A DNA stretch of 60,127 nt, from IMG/VR virus record IMGVR_UViG_3300027589_000004, positions 1 to 60,127 of that record, one strand, 5' to 3'. The notes under the pieces were generated by a model. That model had not been told where the DNA came from. It was given only the letters and a program-made list of their open reading frames with translations, and made no database searches. Position 1 is the first letter of the stretch, and each line of letters starts with the position of its first letter. The position numbers and the translations under genes are program-made. This document shows positions 656 through 17,908 of this stretch, one piece after another. The stretch is from a virus.

Positions 656-1004
656 TGAAAATCGTCATATCACAATTCAATATGCCTTTAGGAGGTATAT
701 CGTGGCTTACACATTCAAGGTAACTTGAATGTAAGCGTAACAAGTTCGACGAAATACAGTCCCTTCAGCGAGGAATCGCTGTTGCAAAACTCTGAATATG
801 CTGGAAAGTCCTTAGAGCCCTGCTTAGTAGACATCCCTAGAAATAGAGATGTCATCTGAGAATAGCAGGGATTGGGCAATCAGCAGGGATAGCTCTAAGT
901 CCATTAGGATATGAGAAGCCCCCAACGACTACCAAGGAGCACCCTGAACGGGTGATGGTATAGTCTACTCCCTTAGAAATATGGCGAAAGCCAGGGTATA
1001 AAGG
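656..1004 (+). ncRNA. Group I self-splicing intron in dnaE
   Basis: This is the only gap in the window longer than 300 bases without coding sequence. It separates two halves of one polymerase gene and carries the group I core. The Q element is AATCAGCAGG (878-887). The R element AACGACTA (924-931) pairs through GACTA with TAGTC of the S element (961-965), forming P7. CACCC-TGAAC-GGGTG (about 941-955) forms P8. TGCTG (799-803) pairs with CAGCA (881-885) as P4. CCCTGCT pairs with AGCAGGG as P5, enclosing GACATC/GATGTC. It ends in G (1004), as group I introns do, and excision leaves the frame open: ...MGCSD joined to YLFNKSHSVAY... . No homing endonuclease gene is present, as it is too short. 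The guide sequence pairing with the 5' exon (P1) was not resolved, so boundaries could shift by a few bases. Confidence 0.9.
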
Positions 1005-3484: not shown

Positions 3485-3739
3485 ATGGAAACCACACTAG
3501 AAGAGAAGCTTATTCAGGTACTCCAAACATTCGATACTCGACAGACAGCAACTCTTAAAGAGCTGATGCAGCTGGGTATCATGGTTGAGTTCCTTACTAT
3601 GAAGATGTTCGAACGTTTTACTGACGAAGAGAGGGCCGCGCTTGAGAACGAGTTCCAAGAGTTTACCAAAGAACGTTACTCTGAGATTCGAACTGAGTGG
3701 CAAACTTTGAAAGAACAAGCTGTAAAGATTACAGATTGA
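3485..3739 (+). CDS. Small acidic hypothetical protein
   Basis: 84 aa, predicted helical and rich in Glu, Lys and Leu; no cysteines, membrane segment or recognised domain. The start is decided by a strong SD within GCCCTTAGGAGAG at 3468-3480, just before the ATG. It lies between the metallophosphoesterase and the Cas4-like nuclease in the same operon, so a small accessory or partner protein of the replication block is possible. Function not recognised. Confidence 0.7.
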   Translation: METTLEEKLIQVLQTFDTRQTATLKELMQLGIMVEFLTMKMFERFTDEERAALENEFQEFTKERYSEIRTEWQTLKEQAVKITD

Positions 3740-3755
3740 TTTACCTGAGGTACCT

Positions 3756-4817
3756 ATGACTAAGGCTTTTTCACTACTAGAACATATTCTTATTGCTTTG
3801 AGAAGGCCACGCGTAGGTGACCCCAAGGAGCCAACGCAATGGCCCTCTGAAGGTTCTTGCACTTACGAAGATGAGCATGGCCTTCAAGTGGCCGGCTCAT
3901 GCCGCAGGCGCTCCTTCTTCCGCTTGTTGGTTGAAGAGTACACATTCGACCCCTCTGGAGTCCCAGAGAACTTGCATGAAGTTGTTGAGATCTTGGAGAA
4001 CAACAAGAAGCCAACAGAAGACTACATGCGATTCATCTGGGCCCAGGGGGAGTTGTATGAGCAATACATCATCGACATGGCTAAGCAGACCGGCGTATTC
4101 CTTTACACTCAGGTTCCTATTTACATTCCTGGCTACACAGTTAGCGGTAAGCTAGATCTTATCTTTGTGGACCCAGAGACAGGTAAACTTCATATTGCAG
4201 AAGCGAAGTCTGTATATGGGGAAGGGGGTACCAAGGTAATGGGTACTCCAGCTATGCGTAGGGAGGGCTATCTTGGTACTCCAAAAGATAGCAACTTGAT
4301 TCAAGCAGGTATCTATGAATGGTGGTGGGCTTCTAAGAATGAAGCCTATGGTCACACTCGGTTGATTTATGGAGACCGTGGCACTGGCATGTACGCTGAG
4401 TTCGAAGTAGCTTGTCGTCCAGGCGTAGACGCCGATGGCAATCCGGTTACTGAGATTTGGTATCTTCCTATGTGCCGTAAAGGTGAATGGACTAAGAGCC
4501 CGTTCACTATTGATTCCATCCTAGCGGCCTATAGAAGTAATCGACTACATATTCAGAATGGCACAGTTCCAGATAGGGACTTCGATGAAGTCTATTCTAA
4601 AGAGAAGCTTGCTTTGTATTACAACACTGGAAGACTTACTCGAAAGGCCGATAGGGAGCAATGGGAGGCGCACGTCCAACGTGAAGAGCTAAATGCTCAG
4701 CTCGAAGCTGAGGGCAAGAAGCCTAAAGTGCCCATTAAGATTCCTGAAGTCGGTGACTTCCATTGTAGGTATTGTGACTTTTCAAAAGCTTGCCCTCTTG
4801 TAGGTAAGAGGTCTTAG
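3756..4817 (+). CDS. Cas4/RecB-like PD-(D/E)XK nuclease with Fe-S cluster
   Basis: 353 aa. The nuclease core is visible as GKLD (Asp134) and EAK (Glu149, Lys151). Four cysteines fit the Cas4/AddB-type 4Fe-4S site: one before the core in SCRRRSFFR (Cys49, matching the family's C-x-R-[KR] motif) and three at the end (Cys337, Cys340, Cys346). The family cuts single-stranded or end-resected DNA, often 5' to 3'. In phages it usually serves recombination or replication, and no CRISPR array lies here. The start ATG has an SD GAGG upstream. A second, degenerate relative is found at 8905. Confidence 0.85.
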   Translation: MTKAFSLLEHILIALRRPRVGDPKEPTQWPSEGSCTYEDEHGLQVAGSCRRRSFFRLLVEEYTFDPSGVPENLHEVVEILENNKKPTEDYMRFIWAQGELYEQYIIDMAKQTGVFLYTQVPIYIPGYTVSGKLDLIFVDPETGKLHIAEAKSVYGEGGTKVMGTPAMRREGYLGTPKDSNLIQAGIYEWWWASKNEAYGHTRLIYGDRGTGMYAEFEVACRPGVDADGNPVTEIWYLPMCRKGEWTKSPFTIDSILAAYRSNRLHIQNGTVPDRDFDEVYSKEKLALYYNTGRLTRKADREQWEAHVQREELNAQLEAEGKKPKVPIKIPEVGDFHCRYCDFSKACPLVGKRS

Positions 4818-4831
4818 GCTCAGGAGATAGA

Positions 4832-5113
4832 TTGGATACGTTCTTCTTTCTACAGGTAGATCTTCTAAACGATCCAGGAACTTTTGAAGAGTTCTTGGTC
4901 TGTGGTTTGTATGTTGAGCGGCTCCACGCTCTATCAGCGGCTATTGCGATTCGAGAAATGGTAATGGCTTCACCTGTACGTAAACAAAACGATGAGGTTC
5001 ATATTCATCTGTTAGAAATCCTTTTCCATTCAGATGGCTCTCGTACAGAGATTACGAGAGAACTAATTGAAATCATTCATAGGGAAGTTAATGCGTCCTG
5101 CCAATCTGTCTGA
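4832..5113 (+). CDS. Hypothetical protein
   Basis: 93 aa, starting with TTG preceded by a good SD (AGGAGATAGA, 4822-4831). No other start in this frame has one. The protein is mixed helical and strand-like without cysteine motifs or membrane segments. Its last 23 bases overlap the start of the primase-helicase, suggesting translational coupling. Function not recognised. Confidence 0.6.
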   Translation: MDTFFFLQVDLLNDPGTFEEFLVCGLYVERLHALSAAIAIREMVMASPVRKQNDEVHIHLLEILFHSDGSRTEITRELIEIIHREVNASCQSV

Positions 5114-7583
5114 CTTAGTATCTAACCTTCGTCCTAAGCTAGCAGACTACCTTTCGGGAGTTCTCCAGAAAGATATCTCTGCCAATCCTCGTAAGGGCTT
5201 TAGTTGCTTTGTTCATGATGACAAATCACCTTCTATGTTTTTGGATCCCAAAAGAAACTTTGAGTATGCTCACTGCTTTTCTTGTGGAGCCGACCTAGAT
5301 ATCTTTGATGCGTATGCCCGCATCAATGGTTATGAAGTAACTGGTCCTGATTTTATGAGCGCTATTCTACCTGGCCTTACAAGTATGTATGGGCTTCCGT
5401 TGACGTTTACCAATGTCACCGAGGCCGATAGGGAGAAGGAGCGCCTATATCGTCTCATGTCGTCTCTGGCGGGTATTGTTGCTAAGCATCCTGCTAAGGA
5501 CTATCTAACTGCACGCAAGTGGTCAGACAATCATCTCATTATCGGCCAAGTATCTTTAGAAGAATGCTGGCAAGAGATGTTATCTCAAGGCTACAGCGAA
5601 GAAGAGTTGGCTCGTTCAAGTCTGCTTCGCCATGGTTCTGCACAGTTCGTTGGTGACAACCTTGTTTCCTTTGTAATTAAGGATGAGAGGGGTCGCCCTG
5701 TCGGCTTTGTTAGTAGGTCACTTGCTACTTCTGGTCCCAAGTATTTGAACTCTGCCGAGTCTGCTATCTATCACAAGAAAGAAGTTCTTGTTGGTTTGGA
5801 CGTAGCTCTTCGTCAAGGTCAAGCCAAGACTAATGGTTTGTTCCTTGTAGAGGGTCCAGGTGATCTTGCAGCTTTGCATCGTATTGGGATTTTGAATGCC
5901 GCCGCCGTCTGCGGCACAGCATTCGGAGCTCAACACCTTGCATTGCTCAAGTCACTTGGCATTAAGCAAGTATTCTTCTGTTTTGATTGGGATGACGCAG
6001 GCATCTCTGCTATTCAAAAGATTCTATTCAATGAGATCAAGTTTGCTCCCGGCGTCTCTTGCTACGTCGTCTCTGCTCCTTCTGGTTCCGTCAAGGACCC
6101 TTCTGAATACTGCTCGGCTTTTGTCGAGGGCGACTCGGCCCCGTTCCTCTCTCTGGATCGTATCCCCGCCTTTGAGTGGGTTCTGGGGCGTATCTCAGAC
6201 AAGGCTACTCCTGAGCAGGTTTGTGAGACTATGGTCCCGCTTATTGCTTCAGAAGCATTGGCCGTTAGAAGGGAAGTACTGGCATCTAAGCTATCAGAGT
6301 TTACTGGTCTTTCTATTACTTCTATTCAGCAAGATATCGCAGCTATTAGAGATGGCAAGGAGCAAGAGCGTCGCTCTCGTCTAGAAGGCGCCGCCCAAAA
6401 ATATATCAAGAACGTACTTAATGACCCAACCAACATCTCTGCATCTTTAGCATCACATGAGATTGATGTAGAGAATATCAATAAAGACTACGATCGTTCT
6501 TCTACGGGCGTGTCTTACCAAGTATCAAGATTCGAAGCCATTGAGGAACAGAAAGCCACTGTCAACGAAGACAACATGACTGAGTTCGTGTTTGGATTCT
6601 ACTTAGACTTTGGTGCCGCTATCTCTGGTGGTATGAACGCTTGTGATGGTAACTTGATGTATGTTGGTGGTCGCGCCAACTCAGGTAAGACTGCTACGGT
6701 AGTCGCTCTTGGCGTTGACGTTGCACTTCATGACCCTAATGCATCTGTCATTTTCCACTTCACAGATGACAGCTACGTTCAGGTAGCACCACGTATGCTG
6801 TGTAATATCGCTGCTATGATTAAGGGTCCTAAAGAACCAGTTCTCAAGATTCATCAAGCAGCCAACCCCTATAGAAACATCACAGATAACAAACTCTGGA
6901 ATGTTTATCATAGGGCGTCTGCTGAACTAAAGAAGGCTCTTGAAGAAGAGAGGCTTGTCATTATTGATTCTGAAGATGGCACTACTCTTGTGCCGTTGGA
7001 GAAGCAGCTGAAAAGCCTACGCTCTAGATATCCCACAAGAAAGATTCTTGCTGTCGTGGACAACACTCACAACTATACCAGCTATCCTGACAAGGAGAAG
7101 ACCGCTCGTATGGAAGCAATTGCTACTGATCAGAAGAACCTAACTACCAAGTATCATTGTGCTATGCTTGCTACTGTTGAGTATCGTAAGAGTGGTATTC
7201 TTAACCCCTCTAAGATGAACTTCCCAGATAATGATGACATCGCAGATGCTCGCGCTATGATCTATCGGCCCAATATCATCATGCATATCTATCAAGATCT
7301 ACATGACAGAGGTAGTAATGCTGAAGTGTTCTGGATCGATTCCGATGGAGTTAAGAGGCCTCGACTCTTGATGCTGTTCGGTAAGAACAAGATTACTTCG
7401 TTCAAATCTCCAGCTAACAAACTGGTATTCGATCTCGATCCTTCTAACGTAACCGTATTCCCTAAGAATACAGAAGAAGCTCGTGAGCAAGCTGCACGCT
7501 ATCTTGAAGATGTAGAAGAGAATGTTGAATTGGATGAAGAGGGTGACACTATCCTAAGCTGGAGAACTCCTAATGAACGATAA
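5091..7583 (+). CDS. Primase-helicase fusion (T7 gp4-like: zinc ribbon, TOPRIM, DnaB-type ATPase)
   Basis: 830 aa from ATG 5091 (SD AGGGAAG); an upstream TTG at 5067 is possible but less likely. A zinc-binding site lies near the N-terminus (Cys39, His42, Cys62, Cys65), as in CHC2 primases. The TOPRIM domain follows, with LVEGPGD near residue 252 and CFDWDDAG near 300. A RecA-like helicase domain has Walker A GGRANSGKT near 525 and Walker B AVVDNTH near 655. This arrangement makes RNA primers and unwinds DNA in one polypeptide, as in T7 gp4. It probably serves the DnaE polymerase encoded upstream. The end overlaps the thyX start by 11 bases. Confidence 0.9.
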   Translation: MRPANLSDLVSNLRPKLADYLSGVLQKDISANPRKGFSCFVHDDKSPSMFLDPKRNFEYAHCFSCGADLDIFDAYARINGYEVTGPDFMSAILPGLTSMYGLPLTFTNVTEADREKERLYRLMSSLAGIVAKHPAKDYLTARKWSDNHLIIGQVSLEECWQEMLSQGYSEEELARSSLLRHGSAQFVGDNLVSFVIKDERGRPVGFVSRSLATSGPKYLNSAESAIYHKKEVLVGLDVALRQGQAKTNGLFLVEGPGDLAALHRIGILNAAAVCGTAFGAQHLALLKSLGIKQVFFCFDWDDAGISAIQKILFNEIKFAPGVSCYVVSAPSGSVKDPSEYCSAFVEGDSAPFLSLDRIPAFEWVLGRISDKATPEQVCETMVPLIASEALAVRREVLASKLSEFTGLSITSIQQDIAAIRDGKEQERRSRLEGAAQKYIKNVLNDPTNISASLASHEIDVENINKDYDRSSTGVSYQVSRFEAIEEQKATVNEDNMTEFVFGFYLDFGAAISGGMNACDGNLMYVGGRANSGKTATVVALGVDVALHDPNASVIFHFTDDSYVQVAPRMLCNIAAMIKGPKEPVLKIHQAANPYRNITDNKLWNVYHRASAELKKALEEERLVIIDSEDGTTLVPLEKQLKSLRSRYPTRKILAVVDNTHNYTSYPDKEKTARMEAIATDQKNLTTKYHCAMLATVEYRKSGILNPSKMNFPDNDDIADARAMIYRPNIIMHIYQDLHDRGSNAEVFWIDSDGVKRPRLLMLFGKNKITSFKSPANKLVFDLDPSNVTVFPKNTEEAREQAARYLEDVEENVELDEEGDTILSWRTPNER

Positions 7584-8442
7584 GTTTTTTCAGATTGGCA
7601 AGGGCCATGTGGCCTATTATGACCACATGGGTGACGATATCTCTATTGCTCAAGCAGCTCGAGCGTCTTACAAGAAGGGTACCAAATCCGTAAGTGATGA
7701 TGCTGCCTTGATTCGTACCCTATATAGGAATGAGCATTTTTCTCCTTTCTCTATGTGCCAACTAAAGCTTCATTTCAAGTTACCCATGTTTGTGTTTAAT
7801 CAATTTGTTAGGCATGACAGGCTTCATTGGAACGTTGAGAGTGGACGCTACTCTGAGATGTCAGACGACTTTTGGGTTCCAGATGATACTGAAGGGCTAC
7901 GCGGTCAAGGTAACGGCTTGAACAAGCAAGCTGGAACCGGGGCCCTTGAAGAGGGCACGGCACAGGAGATTGAGGCGCAACTTATTGCACACGAGCAGCT
8001 AACTCGTACTACCTATCACTATTTGCTTCAGCTTGGTCTTTGTAGAGAGCAAGCTCGTTCTATCATTTCAGTGGGCCAGTACATTGAATGCTTTGCTACT
8101 GCCAACCTAGGCGATTGGTTGCTTCTGCTTTCGAAGCGTCTAGACAGCAATGCTCAACGTGAGAATACTATCTATGCCGAAGCTATCTTCTCTATTATCA
8201 AAGAGTTGTTCCCGATTACTGCTCAAGCGTTCATTGATTACAACTTGGAATCTGTGACCTTCACAAGACTAGAGATGGAGATGCTTCGTCGTATCAACTT
8301 CTCTTTCGGAGAGGACTACAAAGCTCCTCTCCGTAAAGTCCTTCAAACTCACTTTGATGAAGTTGGTATCACATCCAAACGTGAACGTGTTGAGTTTCTC
8401 CAAAAGATTGGTCTATTCGAAGAGGTAACTAATGCTAACTGA
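7573..8442 (+). CDS. thyX: Flavin-dependent thymidylate synthase
   Basis: 289 aa. ThyX converts dUMP to dTMP with methylenetetrahydrofolate, NADPH and FAD, supplying thymidine for phage DNA. The signature normally written RHR-x7-S is present as R80-H81-D82...S90, followed by GRYS. The C-terminal block has LCREQARSI and RLDSNAQRE, matching the family's REQAR and R....AQ.E motifs. The third motif residue is Asp where Arg is usual; the Ser is kept. The start ATG has SD GGAG inside the primase-helicase gene, overlapping it by 11 bases. The downstream gene also overlaps it by 11 bases. Confidence 0.9.
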   Translation: MNDKFFQIGKGHVAYYDHMGDDISIAQAARASYKKGTKSVSDDAALIRTLYRNEHFSPFSMCQLKLHFKLPMFVFNQFVRHDRLHWNVESGRYSEMSDDFWVPDDTEGLRGQGNGLNKQAGTGALEEGTAQEIEAQLIAHEQLTRTTYHYLLQLGLCREQARSIISVGQYIECFATANLGDWLLLLSKRLDSNAQRENTIYAEAIFSIIKELFPITAQAFIDYNLESVTFTRLEMEMLRRINFSFGEDYKAPLRKVLQTHFDEVGITSKRERVEFLQKIGLFEEVTNAN

Positions 8443-8731
8443 TAAACAGAAACAAGATTCTACTGGCATCTACATTTATGACACCAAGACTTTCTACTTT
8501 CTCATTAGCGGCCCACTGCCTAATGATGTGAATAAGCTTCACAACATTCTGTCTGGACGTGGACTAATTAAGGTGAACCGAGAGGGAAAGACTACAGACT
8601 ATAAGCTGATGTCTCATAAAGATGCTGACGAAGCTGGCTACTCTGTTGAGTATTATTTTGTCTCTCCGATTGTAAAGCTTGCCTGGGATAAGGCGCAAAC
8701 CACTGCTCCGTCAAGCAAGCTTTGGGGGTAA
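8432..8731 (+). CDS. Hypothetical protein
   Basis: 99 aa; its ATG lies inside the end of thyX, preceded by GAGG. The sequence suggests a small alpha/beta protein (DTKTFYFLISG, GRGLIKV), perhaps a winged-helix-like fold. No catalytic motif is recognisable. Probably translated together with thyX. Confidence 0.6.
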   Translation: MLTDKQKQDSTGIYIYDTKTFYFLISGPLPNDVNKLHNILSGRGLIKVNREGKTTDYKLMSHKDADEAGYSVEYYFVSPIVKLAWDKAQTTAPSSKLWG

Positions 8732-8734
8732 GCT

Positions 8735-8917
8735 ATGAAGAAGCTTCGTGACTTTGTTTGCAAAAATCCCAGCTGTGCAGATGCTACTGTCGTAGTAGAG
8801 AGATTCGCCGATGATAAGGTAGCTCCTCTTTGCAAGGCGTGCACCAAGCCTATGCTACTCGTTCCTTCTTTCCCTATTGTGCCTACGCACGTCTCTTGGT
8901 CCAAGTGGCGAATCTAG
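8735..8917 (+). CDS. Small zinc-ribbon protein
   Basis: 60 aa. Two cysteine pairs, Cys9-x4-Cys14 and Cys33-x2-Cys36, form a likely zinc ribbon like those in small FmdB-type regulators. A G-rich SD-like stretch precedes the ATG. The last bases overlap the likely GTG start of the next gene. Such proteins often bind nucleic acid or a partner; no specific role can be assigned. Confidence 0.65.
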   Translation: MKKLRDFVCKNPSCADATVVVERFADDKVAPLCKACTKPMLLVPSFPIVPTHVSWSKWRI

Positions 8918-9657
8918 CCACTGCTGGCACGGTATTGTCGGAAGATAGGTTGCGCGCTTACTTCAAATGTTCGCAGTATTATCACTATGGAGGGATACAA
9001 GAGACCCCCGTTTTGATGACTGTGATCAAAGCAACCATCGAGCTGATGATGGCAGAAGCGGTAGAGAAGGAGATTGATTCTCCCTCTACTAGCTTCTTGC
9101 CTTATCTTCAGAAGGCCATCGGTCGTTTGAATTTGCGCCGTCTGTATCTGGAAGGTGAGATCTTTGATCTAACCAATAAGGCGATCTTTGCTCTTACAGA
9201 GTTCTTTACCCTTGTCTCGCCTTCCAAGTACCTTCCTTTTACGGGCCCAACACTACATAGGGTTTTAATTAGTAAGACACCAATTGACTTAAGAATCTCT
9301 TCTACTATGGTTAGAAAAGGGACTCAAGAGTTGATTGGTATCTATTTCTCTCCATACGTTCTGACTCACCATACTCAGAACGATCCTATTCCTTACTTGC
9401 ACTTAAGGTTACTAGAAAAGTTTGGCACTGACCACTTCAAAAGAAATACAGCTTCGCTGTTTGTTTTCGGTGTAGATAAGAACGGTGGGCTGACTACTCA
9501 AGTGCTTGGTAATAAGGACTTCAAGGAGGACTCTTATGTTCTACTTCAAGGGGTTGTTAGAGCGATTGAAATGGGGATCCATTTCCCTCTTAATCCTTGT
9601 CAGCATTATTGTGAATTCAAGGAGAAATGTTTTCCTTACAAGAAGACGTGCCCTTAG
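8905..9657 (+). CDS. Degenerate Cas4-like Fe-S protein, probably not a nuclease
   Basis: About 250 aa from GTG 8905; the frame is open back to a TTG at 8830, and neither start has a convincing SD. The ends look like the Cas4/AddB Fe-S fold: an N-terminal LxxYFKCSQYYHYG segment (Cys22) and a C-terminal cluster Cys232-x3-Cys236-x5-Cys242. In the middle, PIDLRI may keep the metal-binding Asp. The E/D-x-K catalytic pair expected 15-20 residues later is absent (LIGIYFS). It may be a structural or DNA-binding relative of the nuclease at 3756. Confidence 0.55.
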   Translation: MANLATAGTVLSEDRLRAYFKCSQYYHYGGIQETPVLMTVIKATIELMMAEAVEKEIDSPSTSFLPYLQKAIGRLNLRRLYLEGEIFDLTNKAIFALTEFFTLVSPSKYLPFTGPTLHRVLISKTPIDLRISSTMVRKGTQELIGIYFSPYVLTHHTQNDPIPYLHLRLLEKFGTDHFKRNTASLFVFGVDKNGGLTTQVLGNKDFKEDSYVLLQGVVRAIEMGIHFPLNPCQHYCEFKEKCFPYKKTCP

Positions 9658-9665
9658 GAGAAAGA

Positions 9666-9905
9666 ATGGCCGCACTTAGCCACACTCTACTTAAAGAACT
9701 TGCTATCTATTATCATTGCAAAGACAATGCCTCGACTATTGAGATGATTGATTACCTCAAGGACTTCCACGCCTCTCTGGATCCGGCCAATAAGGTTTGG
9801 CTCCAGCTAAGATGGAACAAGCTAACTGAAACAGAGCGGAGAATCTTTGAATCTCCTGAGAACTATTTTAATGTGATTTGTGAATGGTACAGATCATCTA
9901 GCTAG
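9666..9905 (+). CDS. Hypothetical small protein
   Basis: 79 aa from ATG 9666, which has a strong SD (TTAGGAGAAAG). The in-frame ATG at 9627 lies inside the previous gene without one. The protein is predicted helical (TLLKELAIYY, IEMIDYLKDF). The word GCCCTTAG at 9650-9657 spans the previous stop codon and leads into the SD. No function recognised. Confidence 0.65.
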   Translation: MAALSHTLLKELAIYYHCKDNASTIEMIDYLKDFHASLDPANKVWLQLRWNKLTETERRIFESPENYFNVICEWYRSSS

Positions 9906-9913
9906 GAGCTTAT

Positions 9914-10219
9914 ATGCCCGAAGTATTTGGTACTAAGTTCATTATCACGAACACTGCTCGCCAGGTGCTTAACCCGAAGATTTTCGGCGGTGGCCCTTGG
10001 ACGCATCTAGCTACGGTGGTTCGTGGCTTTAGGACCTACATGGCATTCACTAAAGTGAATGACCCTACTAAGACTTATATTGAGATTGTTGACGAGCACT
10101 CACCTGGAGTATTCATTCGTATTGAAGATGACGAAGAATGGCGCGACGTCTATATGTTCATGAAGACCGCAGGCCTCTTCTCTATGGAGAACTTTCATTA
10201 TGTCAAAAGTAAAACGTAA
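9914..10219 (+). CDS. Hypothetical protein
   Basis: 101 aa; SD TAGGAG before ATG. Sequence is mostly beta-like (FIITNTARQVL, TYIEIVDEHSPGVFIRI). No cysteine motif or membrane segment. The end overlaps the next gene by 20 bases. Function not recognised. Confidence 0.65.
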   Translation: MPEVFGTKFIITNTARQVLNPKIFGGGPWTHLATVVRGFRTYMAFTKVNDPTKTYIEIVDEHSPGVFIRIEDDEEWRDVYMFMKTAGLFSMENFHYVKSKT

Positions 10220-10637
10220 TGATCTTCACTCCATCAAAACACAGCTCACCAATCAGTCTGTTTTCCATGACAGAGTAAGGGAGCTGCTTTTATCTTCGCC
10301 CATCCTGAAGGACCTCAAAATCTTTCAGGAGGTTAACCCTAGGTATCTCGATGACACTTACGAATTTACTGGTCATCATTACGATTTCTATATTGAAAGT
10401 CTTGATGTGATTATTGAATGCCACGGCGATCAGCATTACAAGTTTACTAACCGCGGCAACATCCAATATGAAGAGGCCCAGCTTCAATGGAAGCTCTCAC
10501 AAAAGAGAGACAGCACCAAGAAGTCTTTTGCTCTTTCCAAGGGCCTCAGGTACATCGAGATTCCATATTCAGAGAAAGACAAGTTAACTGTCGATAAGCT
10601 ACACGAGCTTATCTTTGGAGACAAGAATGAGAAGTAA
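10200..10637 (+). CDS. PD-(D/E)XK endonuclease, Vsr/DUF559-like
   Basis: 145 aa. The core reads HHYDFYI (Asp62) then VIIECHGDQHY (Glu73, Gly76, Gln78, His79), matching the D...iEydGxqHy pattern of very-short-patch-repair-like and DUF559-type endonucleases. A later YIEIPYSE matches the family's last core strand. These enzymes cut DNA at mismatches, structures or nicks; in this position a repair or recombination role is most likely. ATG lies in the end of the previous gene, and the stop overlaps the start of the ClpP-like gene by 11 bases. Confidence 0.75.
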   Translation: MSKVKRNDLHSIKTQLTNQSVFHDRVRELLLSSPILKDLKIFQEVNPRYLDDTYEFTGHHYDFYIESLDVIIECHGDQHYKFTNRGNIQYEEAQLQWKLSQKRDSTKKSFALSKGLRYIEIPYSEKDKLTVDKLHELIFGDKNEK

Positions 10638-11352
10638 GCTACATACTCCCGATTGTGAAGAGCCCGAAGAGATTGAGGGCGATCTAGAGGATGCAGATGG
10701 TATTCCCGGTATCTCTATTGGGAGTCTCTTGGGTGGCGATGGCGGTTGGCATCCAAGCCAGTTTGTTGGTCTTGGTCCCGAGTCTCGCTCCATCTTCCTT
10801 CTCGGAGAGATCGAAGAGAAGATGGCCGGCGCAATCATTACTCAAATTCAAGAGCTGACCAGCGTAGACCCCAAGGGAGAGATTGTAGTTTACATTCACT
10901 CTCCTGGTGGCTGTGTCGTTTCGACTCTTGCTATCTATGACGCCCTTCGTCACTCTCCTTGTCCCGTGATTACTGTGGCGGTTGGCCAGGCTTCTTCCGG
11001 TGCCTGTATCCTTACTCTGGCGGGTGACTTTCGTATTGCCTTCCCGAATGCCGAGTTCTTCTGGCACGAGGCTATCACTATGGTAGCTATCGATTCTCAT
11101 GAAGACTTTGCGAAGCATCTTGCTCATTACAAGAGCATCATGAAGAAGATCAAGCGTATTGTCCTTGATCGTACGGGCATGTCTAAGAAGCAGTACAAGA
11201 GGTATTTGGCTGGTAACACCAACTTTACTTTTAGTTCTCGCAAGGCCCTTAAGATGAACTGGATTGACCGTGTCGAATCCTATGCTGACAAGCCTCGTTT
11301 CAAGACTCTCGAAGCTTTAGAAGCTCATCTGAATGCTAATGAGGAAGAGTAA
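10627..11352 (+). CDS. ClpP-like serine protease
   Basis: 241 aa from ATG 10627 (SD TTGGAG). An acidic N-terminal extension of about 45 residues precedes the ClpP/crotonase fold. Seen in order are an oxyanion loop HSPGG (91-95), the nucleophile motif GQASSGA (Ser124), His147 in FWHEA, and the helix followed by FTFSSRKALKMNWID near the end. Aligning that last block with bacterial ClpP puts Asn199 where the catalytic Asp belongs. A Ser-His-Asn triad is known in some ClpP paralogues such as Listeria ClpP1. It could be a phage version of the host protease or a morphogenesis protease. No AAA+ partner is visible here, and its place in the replication block argues mildly against a head protease. Confidence 0.82.
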   Translation: MRSKLHTPDCEEPEEIEGDLEDADGIPGISIGSLLGGDGGWHPSQFVGLGPESRSIFLLGEIEEKMAGAIITQIQELTSVDPKGEIVVYIHSPGGCVVSTLAIYDALRHSPCPVITVAVGQASSGACILTLAGDFRIAFPNAEFFWHEAITMVAIDSHEDFAKHLAHYKSIMKKIKRIVLDRTGMSKKQYKRYLAGNTNFTFSSRKALKMNWIDRVESYADKPRFKTLEALEAHLNANEEE

Positions 11353-11739
11353 ATGCCAGGAGGGGCTGGTGTCCGCCGGAAGGGACACAATTTTGAGCGG
11401 GCTATTGCTAACCTACTATCTGAAGTTCTTGGGTTTGAGTTCCGAAGAGGCCTACACCAGACTCGATCAGGTGGCTCGGAGACTTCAGATGTCGTCTCTC
11501 CTGAGGTCCCGCGACTCCACATAGAGTGCAAAAAGGGCAAGCGCACCAACATCAAGGGTGCGCTTGCCCAAGCGCACGAGGACATTAAAGCTTCTAAGGA
11601 AGACAGGGTCCCTATTGTCATTACTCAAGATGATCGAGATGACGTATTAGTTACAATGCGTATGCAAGATTGGATTGAGTTGGCTAAGAAAATGGCCGTT
11701 GAAGATTGGATGGCGCTTTCTTACAAGGAAAAGAAGTGA
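11353..11739 (+). CDS. Holliday-junction-resolvase-like PD-(D/E)XK nuclease
   Basis: 128 aa. The motif order fits archaeal Hjc and phage resolvases: RKGHNFERAIANLL with Glu15, RSGGSETSDVV with Asp46, then HIECKKGK with Glu58 and Lys60. The next helix (GALAQAHEDI) is also typical. It should bind and cut branched recombination or replication intermediates. The ATG directly follows the stop of the ClpP-like gene, so they are co-translated. Confidence 0.8.
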   Translation: MPGGAGVRRKGHNFERAIANLLSEVLGFEFRRGLHQTRSGGSETSDVVSPEVPRLHIECKKGKRTNIKGALAQAHEDIKASKEDRVPIVITQDDRDDVLVTMRMQDWIELAKKMAVEDWMALSYKEKK

Positions 11740-11987
11740 TGGAAAACGAACAGAAGTTTTGGAATGGGGTCTCATTGCATTTGGGAGAAATCGAAGGTAA
11801 GACTTATGATGTCGGCGTAAGGGGGCTTGGCACTGGCAGGCTCACTTTTACTCTTTTGGAAGTGGTATCTGCAGTAACTCAAGAGTATGCGTCCAGGCTA
11901 AGCGAAGTTGGTTCGATTCTTGAAGTGGCCCGTATTCCTGGTTCCGAGGCTCACGAGCTTATTGTTACTCCAATCGATGACGACTAA
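11739..11987 (+). CDS. Hypothetical protein
   Basis: 82 aa from ATG 11739, which shares one base with the preceding TGA; SD AAGGAAAAG. An upstream TTG at 11706 lies in the resolvase gene and is less likely. Beta-rich start, helical middle, acidic end. No known family recognised. Confidence 0.6.
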   Translation: MENEQKFWNGVSLHLGEIEGKTYDVGVRGLGTGRLTFTLLEVVSAVTQEYASRLSEVGSILEVARIPGSEAHELIVTPIDDD

Positions 11988-12002
11988 GCTTGAGATTTTG
12001 CA

Positions 12003-12245
12003 ATGTCTTCAAATGAGATTAAGCTACTCACTTCTTTAGGCAATCTTCTTCTTGTTGCGGATCTTCAAAGAGATCAGTCTGAAAAGGCCCTTGAGAAGTA
12101 CGGCGCTGCTTTTGAGGTACCATTAGAGATGGAGGACTATTTGTTAGAGCAAAAGGAAGTATCCTATTATTTGGGTTACTACGATGGTCTCGACTATGCA
12201 AAACAGCTTGTAGAAGAACTCATTAAAAGTACGCAAAGCAAGTGA
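12003..12245 (+). CDS. Hypothetical helical protein
   Basis: 80 aa, acidic, mainly helical, without cysteines. The ribosome site is weak (only GAG upstream), so it may depend on translation of the gene before it. Function not recognised. Confidence 0.55.
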   Translation: MSSNEIKLLTSLGNLLLVADLQRDQSEKALEKYGAAFEVPLEMEDYLLEQKEVSYYLGYYDGLDYAKQLVEELIKSTQSK

Positions 12246-12258
12246 GGAACCTCATCTC

Positions 12259-12549
12259 ATGTCCATGAACGTCCATCTATCGGCAACGTCTGTCGATCAA
12301 CACAAGTGTGAGCACTGTGGTAGGTCTGACGAGATAAAATACGAGCACTTCGGTTGTTGGCAAACGCCTACTGTGGACACTGACAAGATTTTAGAGCACC
12401 ACACTTTTCAAGCCAAAGTAGATGCTTATGCTAAGTGGGTTACTTCTCGCAACCCTACAGCTGCTTCAAGTCATCTTAAACACCTTGATGAGTTCATTGA
12501 GGCCCATAGTGATAAGACGAAGTGGGATATGCATTGGTACAAGCTCTAA
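12259..12549 (+). CDS. Small zinc-finger protein
   Basis: 96 aa. Cys17-x2-Cys20 in HKCEHCGRSD, then Cys33 and several histidines, suggest a zinc site. The rest is helical and rich in His, Trp and Lys. SD AGGAAC precedes the ATG. A nucleic-acid-binding role is plausible but unproven. Confidence 0.6.
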   Translation: MSMNVHLSATSVDQHKCEHCGRSDEIKYEHFGCWQTPTVDTDKILEHHTFQAKVDAYAKWVTSRNPTAASSHLKHLDEFIEAHSDKTKWDMHWYKL

Positions 12550-12561
12550 TCAGGAGGCTCT

Positions 12562-12765
12562 ATGGATGGTCGGTCTGACTTGATATATCTACCTTGCAGT
12601 TTTTGCAAGGCCACAGGCAAAGATCCCAAGAACCGCAAAAGAAAGTGCTCTCGTTGCTTGGGCTCTACGCAAATGCCCTGGTGTCCTAAATGCAAAGAGC
12701 CTGCTCCTTGTACTGGGCAATTAAGAGCTAGCCTTATGGACTTTAACCATTGTGATGGACCATAG
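12562..12765 (+). CDS. Small cysteine-rich zinc protein, DnaJ zinc-finger-like
   Basis: 67 aa with seven cysteines: Cys12-x2-Cys15, Cys29-x2-Cys32, Cys41-x2-Cys44 and Cys50. CSFCKATGK and CSRCLGS resemble the CxxCxGxG repeats of DnaJ-type zinc domains, without the J domain. Strong SD AGGAGG. It probably binds zinc and a nucleic acid or unfolded protein; no precise role can be given. Confidence 0.65.
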   Translation: MDGRSDLIYLPCSFCKATGKDPKNRKRKCSRCLGSTQMPWCPKCKEPAPCTGQLRASLMDFNHCDGP

Positions 12766-12813
12766 CATAGACTTTAACCTATTGATGCGATAGCGTTCTC
12801 AATCGGAGACCTT

Positions 12814-13449
12814 ATGCTCGTCAGAAGAAAGATCATTTACACTCGACATCCTTTTGACGAGGAGCTTTGGGTGCCCTTAAAGGAAGAGTGGCGGCTCATC
12901 TATTTAGAACGTAATAGAGACTTAACTTATATTCTGTCTCTTTGCATTCCTTACCTTCGGTCTTGGCTTCGCCGGCTTGTTTCGATTGACCACGATGAGC
13001 TTTCGCTTTCGTTGCTGTCGTACTTCAAGAATCCCGAGAAGACCCTTCGTGGGATTAGGCGGCTTGTTCGTGCTGGTGAACTAGAGATCGCAGATCTGCA
13101 ATACTTGATGATCGAAGTACTTCGTTCGTCCAAGAAGATCTACTCTAGGCTCTCCCCACGACAAGCCGCCTTTTTTCTTCACAGGTTCTTTTTGTTTCGG
13201 CTTAAGGATTACATCCGCAACAGAATACATCCTCAGCCCGCTGAGAATCAAATAAGGGACGCTCTGTACTCTTCACCATACGCAGAGCCACAGGACCCTT
13301 CACTATTTCCCATATCGCCCCTGATCGAACTGTACGTGGATAGAACAGAGGAGGAGTTGGCAAAACTTCTGACCACTTACGAAGTGGACGTTGGAAGACG
13401 CAAAAAACAACTCCTTCTTAAGTTACGTACAAAGATAAAAGGGCTTTAA
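12814..13449 (+). CDS. Hypothetical protein, faintly sigma-factor-like
   Basis: 211 aa, basic and helical; SD GGAG before ATG. The block FLHRFFLFRLKDYIRNR recalls region 2 of sigma-70-type factors. The C-terminal ~40 residues (EELAKLLTTYEVDVGRRKKQ) could form a helix-turn-helix as in region 4. The match is by eye and weak. If true, it would direct host polymerase to phage promoters. Otherwise it is an unknown DNA-binding or structural protein. Confidence 0.5.
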   Translation: MLVRRKIIYTRHPFDEELWVPLKEEWRLIYLERNRDLTYILSLCIPYLRSWLRRLVSIDHDELSLSLLSYFKNPEKTLRGIRRLVRAGELEIADLQYLMIEVLRSSKKIYSRLSPRQAAFFLHRFFLFRLKDYIRNRIHPQPAENQIRDALYSSPYAEPQDPSLFPISPLIELYVDRTEEELAKLLTTYEVDVGRRKKQLLLKLRTKIKGL

Positions 13450-13516
13450 CTATTTCGACAGAAAGACTACATTGTTAGAGGCAAGCGCTGGTCGCTTCCC
13501 GAAGGAGCTATTCGTA

Positions 13517-14035
13517 ATGTCCGAAGTTACTAAAACTGAAGCTATTCTGAATCGTAATGCCCGTAACCAGGAGGCGATCGTTCTGGCTACGATTCCTCAG
13601 AATTTCAAGCCGCGTAGGTACGAGATTCCTGGTGGATTGAATCTCCGTAAGAATCTCAATACTCATGAGAAGCTAACGGATGCATTCCATAACTGGCTAA
13701 GAGTTGAAGAGGTCTTTACCAAGTTCACCTTCTCTTTTACTGCTAGTACGGACTATTCCAAGCTCACCAAGGAACGTGCTGAGGTTCTGCCTAAGGGCAA
13801 TGATGGGCTGCCGATCTGGCAGTCTCATCCAGATCGTCGCATGTATCTTGCTCTCGTCCTTTCAAAGGTCGTAGCAAAGTACAAGAACCTGGTTGCGCTT
13901 GAGGTGACACCCGAAGGCGTGGACGTCTATCTAGATCCCACATCGACCTTCAACGAGCAGTCGGAGGACTGGGCTCCAAGCTACACTGTCGTGCCTAACA
14001 AGGCATCGAAGGGTCAGTACGCTATCAGGGCCTGA
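13517..14035 (+). CDS. Abundant-looking hypothetical protein with its own terminator
   Basis: 172 aa from ATG 13517, which has a good SD (GAAGGAG at 13501-13507); an in-frame TTG at 13472 lacks one. No membrane segment, cysteine or known motif. Basic N-terminal third (NFKPRRYEIPGGLNLRKN), then beta-rich segments. A perfect intrinsic terminator follows its stop, so it ends a transcription unit and may be made in quantity. A DNA-binding or virion-internal protein is possible; it is not recognised. Confidence 0.65.
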   Translation: MSEVTKTEAILNRNARNQEAIVLATIPQNFKPRRYEIPGGLNLRKNLNTHEKLTDAFHNWLRVEEVFTKFTFSFTASTDYSKLTKERAEVLPKGNDGLPIWQSHPDRRMYLALVLSKVVAKYKNLVALEVTPEGVDVYLDPTSTFNEQSEDWAPSYTVVPNKASKGQYAIRA

Positions 14036-14047
14036 GCACTCAATCTA

Positions 14048-14085
14048 GGGGGCAGAGAAGTATTTTACTTCTCTGCCCCCTTTTT
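14048..14085 (+). terminator. Intrinsic terminator after the 172-aa gene
   Basis: A perfect 15-bp stem (GGGGGCAGAGAAGTA with its exact complement) around a TTT loop is followed by TTTTT at 14081-14085. It begins 13 bases after the stop codon. Confidence 0.93.
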
Positions 14086-14109
14086 ATTTGCCCTTAAGGA
14101 GTACAACGA

Positions 14110-14259
14110 ATGCTTTTGCAACTAAACGATAAAGGTAAGAAGCGAGTTTGTTATTTGCCTGCGATCACTGCAGAGTCACAAAACTTTCTAAAGAAGCATT
14201 GCGCGGGCCAAGATATGCAACAGATCAAAGTCAAAGAACTTCTCCCTACTGATCTTTAG
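14110..14259 (+). CDS. Small hypothetical protein ending at an in-frame amber codon
   Basis: 49 aa, ATG with strong SD (AAGGAG, 14097-14102). It begins MLLQLNDKGKKRVCYL and ends ...LLPTDL at TAG 14257. The same frame then continues open for another 38 codons (14260-14373) to a second TAG at 14374, just before the next gene's SD. The continuation reads like protein (FWFDADNKRYTT). The gene may therefore be an 88-aa product reached by amber readthrough, or a broken gene. No function recognised. Confidence 0.55.
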   Translation: MLLQLNDKGKKRVCYLPAITAESQNFLKKHCAGQDMQQIKVKELLPTDL

Positions 14260-14376
14260 TTTTGGTTTGATGCCGACAACAAGAGGTACACTACTTTGGC
14301 GATCGAGCAAGACGCTCTGCTTTGCCGTAAGAACTCACCCCCTTTCTTTTTAGCGGTCAAAACCTGTACCGCTTAG
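14260..14376 (+). pseudogene. Downstream continuation after the amber codon
   Basis: 38 sense codons in the same frame as the 49-aa gene, ending at TAG 14374-14376. It has no convincing start or SD of its own, so it would be made only by readthrough or suppression of TAG 14257. It fills the space exactly up to the next gene, which suggests it was once, or still is, part of one protein. Confidence 0.4.
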
Positions 14377-14384
14377 GAAACTCC

Positions 14385-14876
14385 TTGGACGTTGCCAGTC
14401 TCCTCGACAAATCTGTTCCCCTTCTCCGCAAGCATTTGGAGAAGAAGATCGAAGATCTCGAGATCACTTTGAAGTCTGTTGGAATCTCGTCTATTGATGA
14501 CGTCTTTAAAAGTGACACTAATTTCCATGGGCTCAAAGACTTTGTAGATACAATGTCCGATTCTCTGTCAGACGCTCACGAGACCATTGATCTTTTGAAG
14601 AAGGTTTCGGAGGAGAAGCTTCCTGCTGCCGAAGCCCGTATCGCCGAGCTAGAAAAGGGGCTCAAGATGGCCACTAAGGCAAACGAGACTTTGGCTACGT
14701 CTCTCAAGACCCTTTCTAAAGAGGTCGAGAGAATTGGTAAGCTTGCCAACACTTCTACTCCTGCAGCTACACCGGCCCCTGCGCCTAGTTCTTCTGCTCT
14801 TGAAGAGCGTTTGAACAAGATTGAGACCTGGGTTGCCTCTGTTGCATATCAGCTTGGGATTCCGTTTAAGAAATGA
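14385..14876 (+). CDS. Coiled-coil protein with Ala/Pro linker
   Basis: 163 aa, TTG start with AGGAAA upstream. Residues ~10-120 are heptad-rich, followed by an Ala/Pro/Ser/Thr linker (~125-140) and a C-terminal helix ending in LGIPFKK. The stop overlaps the Nudix start as ATGA. It looks like an oligomeric scaffold or structural protein; function unknown. Confidence 0.6.
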   Translation: MDVASLLDKSVPLLRKHLEKKIEDLEITLKSVGISSIDDVFKSDTNFHGLKDFVDTMSDSLSDAHETIDLLKKVSEEKLPAAEARIAELEKGLKMATKANETLATSLKTLSKEVERIGKLANTSTPAATPAPAPSSSALEERLNKIETWVASVAYQLGIPFKK

Positions 14877-15406
14877 CAATTCGAGTTTTTGTGCTTCCCA
14901 TTCTTTTGTGGAAGCATCCTAAAGACGAGAAGCCTAGACCTATTGCTATTGTCAATCGCGGAACCCTTTATAAGTCTTCCCTTGCCACTGAATACGAAGG
15001 TAAGCTCAAGCTTTTTGGTGGGCTTGTGGAAAAGGGGGAAAGCGTTACCGCTGCACTTCAAAGAGAAGTCAACGAAGAGCTTCCTAATCTCACTCCTTAC
15101 ATTGATGACTTTTTGCTATGCCAGAAACAGTCTTACGGTGATCCAAACAAAGCTTTTGCTGGAAGTTTCTTTGAGACCTTCAATATTTTGGGATCTCCTA
15201 ACCCTCTCCAGGTTAGGATTCTTCATTTGCTTGTTAATGATTACGTTCACACTACAGAAGACTTGTATGATCTAATTGCCGGTTGCGCAGAAGGCAACGC
15301 TGAGTTCTATGACATTCTTAATCGTCCATTCAATTCTGAAGACTGGGTCCCGTTTCTCTCGGTACTCCATTCCAAGTTTTTCTCCTACCGTTTGGAGCAC
15401 TCGTGA
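14873..15406 (+). CDS. Nudix hydrolase
   Basis: 177 aa. The complete Nudix box G-x5-E-x7-REUxEE is visible at residues 50-69 (GGLVEKGE... REVNEEL). Nudix enzymes cleave nucleoside diphosphates linked to another group, such as damaged dNTPs, NAD or ADP-ribose, RNA caps or Ap4A. The substrate cannot be told from the sequence. The N-terminal strand (VFVLPILLWKH) and the body after the box fit the fold. Coupled by ATGA to the coiled-coil gene; the GTG of the lipoprotein gene overlaps its stop. Confidence 0.85.
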   Translation: MTIRVFVLPILLWKHPKDEKPRPIAIVNRGTLYKSSLATEYEGKLKLFGGLVEKGESVTAALQREVNEELPNLTPYIDDFLLCQKQSYGDPNKAFAGSFFETFNILGSPNPLQVRILHLLVNDYVHTTEDLYDLIAGCAEGNAEFYDILNRPFNSEDWVPFLSVLHSKFFSYRLEHS

Positions 15407-16125
15407 AACACCTTCCTTTCCTTCTGGCCCTTACCCTCATCACTGCCTGTGACAACAGCGAGACCTACCAGGTTCCTCCTGTCCAGACCATCAACGAGAT
15501 GGCCAGTAACAACCTCAAGACCTTGTACCCTGGTGGATTCCATGGTCCTATTTGCGTTAACAACGAGCGTAACCCGACTCACTTCGGCTGTAGTTATACC
15601 TACGGTGGGGACACTGATCCCAAGTTCGGATTCCTGGATTGCACCGCTCAGGGTTGTGTTCAGAGCACGCCTACTATGAGCGTCCCTGTGGATCACACGA
15701 TGGCCCGTAGGGATAGCGGCATCGATGCTGAAGACATCCTCCTCTTCTACGCGCTCACGTCGGTTGGGACCAACACTGGTCCCAACTATCACTACTGGCA
15801 TGCGAACACTCCTCCGGCGTATCGCGCCCACTATTACCACTCGTCTGTTTTGCCTTCTACGGGCAACTATAATCAGAAGCACATCACTACTTACTCTAGT
15901 GGTGAATATAAGAACCGCCCCGCTCGCCCGAGCGCTTCTACTTACAAGACTAACCGCAGCTACTCTGTCCCTGCCTCGAAGCCAAGCAGCTACACCACTT
16001 CTCCTAAGCCGAGCTCTTGGAGCAGCCCCAAGCCCAGCTCAAGTCGCCCTAGCTCTGCGTCTCGTCCCAGTAGCTCTCGTTCGAGTTCCAGTCGCAGTAC
16101 TGGCATCGGCCGGGGTCGTCGCTAA
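15403..16125 (+). CDS. Predicted lipoprotein with Ser/Pro-rich C-terminus
   Basis: 240 aa from GTG 15403, overlapping the Nudix stop. The N-terminus is a short basic start, a hydrophobic run and a lipobox LITAC, giving lipidated Cys16. Four more cysteines (ICVN, FGCSY, LDCTAQGC) may form disulfides outside the cytoplasm. The last ~90 residues are low-complexity Ser, Pro and Arg (PKPSSW, SSSRS). The next gene encodes a membrane protein, so the pair could act in the envelope, for instance in superinfection exclusion or outer-membrane disruption. The pairing with spanin function is speculative. Confidence 0.7.
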   Translation: MKHLPFLLALTLITACDNSETYQVPPVQTINEMASNNLKTLYPGGFHGPICVNNERNPTHFGCSYTYGGDTDPKFGFLDCTAQGCVQSTPTMSVPVDHTMARRDSGIDAEDILLFYALTSVGTNTGPNYHYWHANTPPAYRAHYYHSSVLPSTGNYNQKHITTYSSGEYKNRPARPSASTYKTNRSYSVPASKPSSYTTSPKPSSWSSPKPSSSRPSSASRPSSSRSSSSRSTGIGRGRR

Positions 16126-16496
16126 TGACGACTCTGTTTGGCATTCTCTTCGCTGCTGTCGTACTCCTTCTTGGCCTCTACATCCATGCCCTTAGAAAGA
16201 CGATCGCTTCCTTGAAGGAAGCTGGAAAGAAGGCCGTCGAGGAAGAGAGGGCATTCCACGAGAAGTATTGGGATCGTCTTCGTGGCATTCCTGTTGCTGG
16301 AACTCGTTTCAAGCTTGAAGGTGTCGGTGACATCATTGTTATCGGTCACAACTTCGATGAGAATTACATTGAATATTGCTTAGCTGAGGACTTTGATACT
16401 CGAGACCCTGATAGGGAGTTCGGAGACGTCGATATCATCACTAACGATCTTGACAACTTCACTGCTCGTGCTGAGCACGCCTTGGCTTTGATGTGA
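16125..16496 (+). CDS. Single-pass membrane protein
   Basis: 123 aa; ATG overlaps the lipoprotein's TAA by one base. A strong N-terminal membrane helix (residues ~4-22, FGILFAAVVLLLGLYIHAL) is followed by a charged helix (~27-50) and a small soluble domain. This is the topology of an inner-membrane spanin subunit, but the soluble part looks folded rather than purely coiled. Function uncertain. GTGA overlap with the next gene. Confidence 0.6.
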   Translation: MTTLFGILFAAVVLLLGLYIHALRKTIASLKEAGKKAVEEERAFHEKYWDRLRGIPVAGTRFKLEGVGDIIVIGHNFDENYIEYCLAEDFDTRDPDREFGDVDIITNDLDNFTARAEHALALM

Positions 16497-17026
16497 GCCC
16501 TAAAATCCCTAAAGCTCCCATCACTATTCTAAACGAGATCCAAACTGGAAAGGATATTTGCGCCATTACCATGGACAGAGTTCATCCGTGGCAATTTGCC
16601 ATTTTTGAACGTCCTGATTATAACTTCCTATTCCCGTTTAGGTTACTCGTTGCTGGGAAAAAGGAAGCTTGGCAAGCTTACGAAGCTATTCGCTTTTCCA
16701 TTAGCTCACGACTAAATAGCCTCAATCGTGAGATACATTACAATTCGAGTTTTCATCTTGCCAAAGCTCGTTTAGAAAGCAATCTTCGATCTCCGATTAA
16801 GAATGTATGCTGGAAAGACTTTCCACCTACTTTGAGAACTAATCTTTACGGTGTTGAGACTTCGTCAGTTCTAAGCGGAGATCAAGGAGGTTTCCTTTTT
16901 CTAAGGGTTGAGCGCACACAAAGTTCTTTTTACTACACTTCGGGTAGAGAGATCGGTTTGTTTACTCTTGAAGAAATTCTTCAAGCTTGGCCCGTGGAAG
17001 AGGGATACTTAGAGAAGATCGGATAA
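16493..17026 (+). CDS. Hypothetical protein
   Basis: 177 aa, GTG start overlapping the previous stop as GTGA. It is alpha/beta with a basic, aromatic-rich character and no recognised motif. Part of the last plus-strand operon before the convergent terminator. Confidence 0.6.
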   Translation: MSPKIPKAPITILNEIQTGKDICAITMDRVHPWQFAIFERPDYNFLFPFRLLVAGKKEAWQAYEAIRFSISSRLNSLNREIHYNSSFHLAKARLESNLRSPIKNVCWKDFPPTLRTNLYGVETSSVLSGDQGGFLFLRVERTQSSFYYTSGREIGLFTLEEILQAWPVEEGYLEKIG

Positions 17027-17065
17027 TTATAGCGCCAATTCTTTCTTACAAGCCCCGGAGGACAC

Positions 17066-17638
17066 ATGCTCCCACTCACTTTCGAGCGACTTGAGACATC
17101 GCTAAGAAATACAGATACATCTAATATGGAATATTACCAAATTCACGTTTGTCTGCGTATCTGCGAAGTCAGCAAAGACTTAATCAACCAAAACAATAAC
17201 AAGTCGTATGTTTTTAGTGGCGCCTCAGACAATGGATTTGCCAATGCTCTTGCAGCTTACGAGACTCTTAAGAACGAATTCGCTTCCATCATTCCAATCT
17301 TGACGAGTAGACTACCTTTCGAACAGATCGGAGATTTAGAGATCAGCAAGAACTGTGAACGAATTCAAGCCCTTATCACTCAATATACAGACGTCAAGCT
17401 TAAAGAAACCTGGCCTGACAGCCCTTTTTCTCAGTCCGCTGTTCTACGCCGATTCGAAGTTTCTTTTAAACCTCGGTACAAATATTGTTATGTCGATTAC
17501 GATTGCAAAGTGCAACGTTCAGCCGATGGAGAACTGCGTACCAACCCCCGTATCGAAGAAGATGCAAGGTTTACGGATCATGGATCTTCTTGGTTGTCCA
17601 TCGCAACAGTTAGTCTGCTAAAGCGTAGCAAAATTTGA
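17066..17638 (+). CDS. Hypothetical protein
   Basis: 190 aa with strong SD (CGGAGG). The N-terminal two thirds look helical, the last third beta-rich with several Tyr and Cys (YKYCYVDYDCKV). It is the last gene on the plus strand and ends 24 bases before the convergent terminator. Function not recognised. Confidence 0.6.
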   Translation: MLPLTFERLETSLRNTDTSNMEYYQIHVCLRICEVSKDLINQNNNKSYVFSGASDNGFANALAAYETLKNEFASIIPILTSRLPFEQIGDLEISKNCERIQALITQYTDVKLKETWPDSPFSQSAVLRRFEVSFKPRYKYCYVDYDCKVQRSADGELRTNPRIEEDARFTDHGSSWLSIATVSLLKRSKI

Positions 17639-17661
17639 TTTACGGCTAAGTATGAGAATAG

Positions 17662-17687
17662 AAGAGGGGGCTTTGCCCCCTCTTTTT
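17662..17687. terminator. Bidirectional terminator between converging blocks
   Basis: GAGGGGGC-TTT-GCCCCCTC (17664-17682) is a perfect 8-bp GC-rich stem, extended by two A-T pairs, with TTTTT following on the plus strand. On the minus strand the same hairpin is followed by TTCTATTC, a weaker U-rich tail. It ends the replication block and very likely the structural block too. Confidence 0.9.
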
Positions 17688-17907
17688 AATCAATATCTTC
17701 GTAAGGTTCCTCTTCGATAGTCTCTACTCTCGTAGTTAAAGCCTCTACGATATCTCTAAGGGCAGTAGTCTCTGCACTGAGAATTGTGTAGATCTCCGAG
17801 ATCTGCAAGTTGGTCATATAGTTATTCATGGCTGTAGTGACTTCGTTTAGTTTGTTTTCTAAGGCCGTTAGGCGAGAGAGGATCTTTTGGTATTGTGCCT
17901 CAGTCAT
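17686..17907 (-). CDS. Small coiled-coil protein
   Basis: 73 aa from ATG 17907 with SD TTTGGAG; an upstream in-frame TTG at 17925 is less likely. It is almost wholly heptad-patterned (LTALENKLNEV, LRDIVEALTTRV) with an acidic tail. Last gene of the structural block, next to the XhlA-like protein, so a lysis or virion accessory role is possible. Confidence 0.65.
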   Translation of the reverse strand: MTEAQYQKILSRLTALENKLNEVTTAMNNYMTNLQISEIYTILSAETTALRDIVEALTTRVETIEEEPYEDID

Positions 17908-17908
17908 T

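Follow-up and report, generated by a model that had tools for sequence, protein, structure and literature searches.

A group I intron without an open reading frame at the FNKSH block of a phage DnaE gene

The interrupted dnaE gene and its surroundings

The stretch of DNA analysed here, referred to as the window, is the entire IMG/VR virus record IMGVR_UViG_3300027589_000004 (60,127 bases). It opens inside dnaE, so the genome is incomplete and the N-terminal part of the polymerase falls off the contig. Both exons and all the intron elements described below lie on the plus strand. The dnaE frame running from base 2 ends at a TGA at positions 656-658, and a second frame occupies 1005-2162. The 5' exon (2-655) ends in VIMGCSD with U655 as its last base and contains a DNA_pol3_finger domain (Pfam, 4e-37), while the 3' exon (1005-2162) starts with YLFNKSHSVAY and contains the HHH_6 domain (2.7e-23) and the OB-fold tRNA_anti-codon domain (3.8e-6). 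With finger domain, HHH, OB-fold and FNKSH block all present, the split gene encodes DnaE (DNA polymerase III alpha); no close relative lacking the intron turned up, the most similar phage DnaE having 39% identity. When both parts are compared with the NCBIfam profile PRK05673, the first one (218 residues) is matched up to profile position 742 at its residue 214 and the second one is matched from profile position 747 at its residue 1, which places the junction between positions 743-746 and 747. This continuity indicates that the two parts are adjoining pieces of one protein from which nothing has been lost or gained. Likewise, a protein alignment with five other phage DnaEs runs without gaps across the junction of VIMGCSD and YLFNKSH. 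An earlier note had proposed from the sequence that an intron splits a phage DnaE just before YLFNKSH and that the polymerase would be truncated if it were not spliced; the first claim is borne out by the gap-free alignment and the continuous profile matches, and the second by the TGA at 656-658 that the frame of the 5' exon meets.

Elsewhere in the window, positions 5067-7583 encode an 838-aa protein in which a DnaG-type primase (zinc-ribbon, DNAG_N and Toprim) is joined to the C-terminal part of a DnaB-like helicase. A ThyX thymidylate synthase (7573-8442), a ClpP-like protease (10615-11352), a PDDEXK_15 phage endonuclease (11353-11739) and a NUDIX-domain protein (14873-15406) are also encoded. 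The structural region (38133-56557) is on the minus strand and holds three very large ORFs of 2988, 1797 and 1358 aa, the last of which has no PHROGs match. The major head protein is encoded at 59374-60054, and the nearest phage records are Moorella phage MTATph1, Bacillus phage KLEB27-3 and Acinetobacter phage ME3 (32-42% identity).

Recognition and secondary structure of the intron

The 349 nt between the exons (656-1004) are recognised as a group I intron from a match to Rfam RF00028, from covariation and from the continuity of frame and protein. In a permissive search of 701 nt, RF00028 matches positions 707-986 on the plus strand over its full length (model 1-253) with 48.2 bits (E 3.9e-11), and in a search of the whole record the match has an E-value of 7.8e-13. 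The covariance-model search that the earlier note had suggested thus returns an end-to-end match, although one that lies 1.8 bits below the gathering score of 50 bits. A default Rfam scan at the gathering score gives no match in the whole window nor in 13 related loci, and four relatives (L002-L004 and L093) fall short of an E-value of 0.001. The free fold of the intron is more stable than that of shuffled sequences (z -5.5). The Q (798-807), R (924-931) and S (957-965) elements are all present, together with P7 (927-931/961-965) and P8 (940-944/950-954); the group I assignment of the earlier note, which named these same elements, stands on the RF00028 match and on comparative pair counts.

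The core can be followed helix by helix. P2 is a hairpin at 766-781 (CAGCGA-GGAA-UCGCUG) with compensatory changes in 5 of its 6 pairs. The 5' strand of P3 (790-793) pairs with 936-939, where 100% of cells are paired and 3 of 4 pairs have changed in a compensatory way, and the 5' strand of P4 (799-803), which lies within the Q element UGCUGGAAA, pairs with 881-885 (100% paired, 4 of 5 compensatory). P5 (808-811/874-877) and its extension fill 808-877, the pair 808/877 being weak, with 6 of 12 unpaired. P6 (886-888/919-921) and P6a (893-895/913-915) follow within 886-921; they are 100% paired, and 5 of their 6 pairs show compensatory changes. P7, the guanosine-binding helix, is formed according to the Rfam alignment by GACUA of the R element (927-931) and UAGUC (961-965). 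The 3' strand of P3 and the P8 hairpin share positions 936-954, and in P8 96.7% of cells are paired and 3 of 5 pairs show compensatory changes. The last segment (955-1004) matches introns of Staphylococcus phages and comprises J8/7, the 3' strand of P7, P9 (970-972/994-996) with a hairpin closed by a GAAA loop (982-985/990-993), and the terminal G1004.

The comparative support for this core comes from related introns, which were retrieved with blastn searches and with a pattern of the core. In 8 introns (the window included), a hand-written P3-P9 structure with P3 and P7 pseudoknotted leaves 91.5% of cells paired. When 12 related introns are considered over P2-P9, 95.1% of cells are paired versus 78.2% in shuffles, both sides have changed in 27 of 42 pairs, and the covariation score reaches 0.423 versus 0.126 in shuffles, with none of 500 shuffles scoring as high. 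Sliding the registers by 1-3 columns leaves 26-40% of cells paired in the same 12 introns, a control that favours the window sequence, from which the structure was written, while the shuffles are free of that bias but ignore kinship. Covariation is seen in P2, P3, P4, P5, P6, P8 and P9 and is especially clear in P3 and P4; P3 is CUCU/GGAG here, CGCA/UGCG in MT835492 and CAUC/GAUG in Lak-B1. P7 is invariant in all 12 sequences and, therefore, uninformative in this respect.

Boundaries, relatives and mobility

The 5' exon ends in U655, the intron ends in G1004, its first codon is the in-frame TGA, and in-frame stops occur inside it. With a query extended to 2162, blastn matches to about 40 Staphylococcus phage records cover 955-1004 and halt exactly there. 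The predicted boundaries at 655/1005 are well fixed by the U and G ends, by protein continuity and by this blastn endpoint. Other splice sites were considered, and no alternative U/G pair retains both the frame and the length of DnaE. P1 was placed by homology to relatives: exon GGAU (652-655) pairs with GUCC (759-762), the putative internal guide sequence, in a 4-bp helix with U655 in a G.U wobble with G759, and this register was chosen because the guide sequence of the relatives sits immediately before P2. A second candidate, a 6-bp P1 at 650-655/744-749, was rejected since it competes with P1a and since the relatives put the guide sequence beside P2. Positions 656-758 form a structured P1 loop domain of 103 nt with P1a (662-666/748-752) and hairpins at 680-688/692-700 and about 705-736, and taken by itself this domain gives a stable fold (z -4.6, none of 200 shuffles as stable). 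A P10 candidate recognised by eye, AUA (754-756) with UAU (1005-1007), is weak, with no more than 3 bp and a spacer of 2 nt.

The score just under the Rfam cut-off, the short P1 and the fact that no endonuclease remains would be compatible with a group I intron that has decayed and lost its ability to splice, in which case dnaE would be broken or alternatively expressed. Against this, all the core helices, and with them Q, R and S, are preserved and covary, the DnaE frames of the two exons are good and otherwise uninterrupted, and the splice-site U and G are present, which makes such decay very unlikely. We estimate at roughly 95% the probability that the element is an intact, ORF-less group I intron of 349 nt in a phage DnaE gene and that it is spliced.

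The closest introns to this one (77-79% identity over about 217 nt, intron nucleotides 133-347) are located in tape-measure genes of Clostridioides difficile phage-plasmids (L374, L376-L378 and L372; NZ_CP029155, resembling phiCDIF1296T). They have the core family in common with the DnaE intron, and like it they are without an endonuclease ORF and have a short direct connection between P7 and P3; however, they reside in a tape-measure gene instead of dnaE, and where the DnaE intron has its 103-nt domain they have a small P1 loop. One of these tape-measure genes contains two ORF-less group I introns (L374:5938-6940), and a further ORF-less intron is found in another C. difficile phage-plasmid tape-measure gene (L380:2466-3040). 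In NZ_CP029155 the intron-bearing tape-measure gene is publicly annotated as two separate CDSs. Introns of Staphylococcus Twortvirinae phages (Romulus, Remus, BE25 and others) are 86-88% identical over the last 50 nt, up to the 3' splice site, and share the P6-P9 core, whereas P3, P8 and the host genes differ; BE25 has an intron-encoded nuclease nearby, unlike the DnaE intron. Related introns of Aeromonas D3 and Pseudomonas KIL1 differ from it in carrying extra sequence between P7 and P3. The intron of Pseudomonas syringae phage KIL1 lies in a gene whose annotated CDS is joined from two pieces (L369:228-2062); in the RefSeq copy this gene is the one for the portal protein. Canonical IA1/IA2 introns, the usual phage subgroup, have P7.1/P7.2 between P7 and P3. 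Here, only 4 nt (932-935) separate the 5' strand of P7 from the 3' strand of P3, so P7.1/P7.2 are absent and the intron is not a canonical IA1/IA2 member. Phage IA2 introns are heterogeneous, and database models miss phage forms (PMC11878797).

ORFs lying wholly inside the intron, on either strand, reach at most 54 aa and encode no endonuclease, in agreement with what the earlier note had stated. Among 20 small proteins of the window (3485-18310 and 58569-59309), Pfam detects no HNH, GIY-YIG or LAGLIDADG enzyme. Endonucleases that act in trans to mobilise ORF-less introns are known (PMC3984707). Arrival at this site would most likely have proceeded via homing of an endonuclease-bearing ancestor, through an endonuclease provided in trans, or by reverse splicing. 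As a sub-case of an intact intron, the element may descend from an IStron or a comparable mobile composite, or an endonuclease gene may have been recently deleted from the P1 loop, as the 103-nt domain that is extra relative to the relatives and the occurrence of some relatives in C. difficile, the source of IStrons (PMC3984707), could suggest. This origin is nevertheless improbable, given that the intron contains no transposase or endonuclease, that the P1 loop domain is a strong structure with no recognisable ORF remnant, and that the nearest relatives are likewise ORF-less. The earlier note's suggestion of a relic, or of an intron mobilised from elsewhere, may hold, but because those relatives also lack an ORF, recent loss of an endonuclease is no more probable than descent from an ORF-less lineage.

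The insertion site and its significance

The insertion point of the intron falls between two codons whose counterparts in E. coli DnaE are those of residues 753 and 754, 18 nt upstream of the codon for the steric-gate histidine (E. coli H760). The E. coli residues S759 and H760, of which H760 acts as the steric gate and contacts the incoming dNTP (PMC8485763), are represented by the final SH of FNKSH. The preference for conserved sites that the earlier note had ascribed to such introns is a published property, shared by group I introns and inteins (PMC2814812).

The same site was searched in other phages. All 80 phage DnaE loci retrieved with a whole-region profile, whose ranking favours contiguous genes, are contiguous at FNKSH, and retrieval by the 3' exon alone, which is not biased to contiguous genes, returned no intron at the site. 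Scanning viral contigs for ATAGTC followed by a gap and YxFNKSH, likewise without a bias to contiguous genes, yielded 9 matches, all of them contiguous DnaE or non-DnaE; an equally unbiased AGTC variant of the intron-plus-exon pattern gave no DnaE intron among the matches listed, and the GGTATAGTC variant gave 0 matches in GTDB genomes. The exact pattern AAAGG plus YLFNK was found in 79 stretches, unrelated except for one DnaE with an intein, and a single-protein search with the 3' exon had no match. These searches suggest that an intron at the DnaE FNKSH site is rare, among the matches listed and with records near the window left out. A literature search found no DnaE group I intron reported in the open-access literature. 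The intron is of an already well-known kind, and none lies at exactly the same spot in the sequences and papers searched.

Other splicing elements occupy the neighbourhood of this site. The phage DnaE of a 140-kb IMG/VR contig (L072) carries a mini-intein at 4426-5010, inserted between YLFNK and SH and located between the finger and HHH domains (Intein_splicing, 2.2e-7), in which Pfam finds no endonuclease family. It is thus a protein splicing element in the same FNKSH block, but 12 nt downstream of the start of YLFNKSH. The cyanobacterial split DnaE intein, inserted between Y and CFNKSH, is also a splicing element at this active-site block, but operates by protein splicing. An intein just 12 nt away invites the question of whether the insertion in the window might be an intein as well, or else a translational bypass element or an assembly artefact. 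In-frame stops exclude an intein, a bypass hairpin would have no covarying group I core, and an artefact fits poorly with exons that join cleanly and a ribozyme that is canonical; readings of this kind are hardly credible. Introns in the replication genes of phages have long been known, among them group I introns in the DNA polymerase genes of SPO1 and Bastille (PMC11878797, PMC3984707). Like the intron described here, those of SPO1 and Bastille interrupt conserved sequence of a phage polymerase (PMC2814812, PMC11878797, PMC3984707), whereas they lie in A-family (DNA polymerase I type) genes and encode a homing endonuclease, in contrast to the C-family DnaE of the window, whose intron has none.

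For the group I intron in dnaE, established group I chemistry is the basis on which we infer the splicing steps. The transcript would fold and P7 would bind an exogenous guanosine, and the 5' splice site would be cut after U655, the base paired with G759 in the putative guide sequence. Once released, U655 would attack after G1004, and the exons joined in this way would encode the polymerase without interruption. From mRNA left unspliced, translation would yield a polypeptide that ends at the TGA at 656-658 and is devoid of the steric-gate motif. Phage replication would depend on the ribozyme only if DnaE is essential to the phage.

It may be, as a tentative proposal, that no group I intron has been found before at the steric-gate block in a replicative polymerase of the bacterial type (C-family), that phage DnaE has been invaded independently by introns and by inteins at points only 12 nt apart, and that a compact ORF-less lineage spreads between phage genes (tape measure and dnaE) without an endonuclease of its own. 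The locus would provide a clean C-family example of splicing elements settling at near-unchangeable codons, beside the histidine of the steric gate that contacts the dNTP (PMC8485763). Introns of this type are missed at the default Rfam cut-off, and as a consequence phage genes are called as two fragments. The closeness of the intron and intein sites would, in addition, offer a test case for elements that compete for one target.
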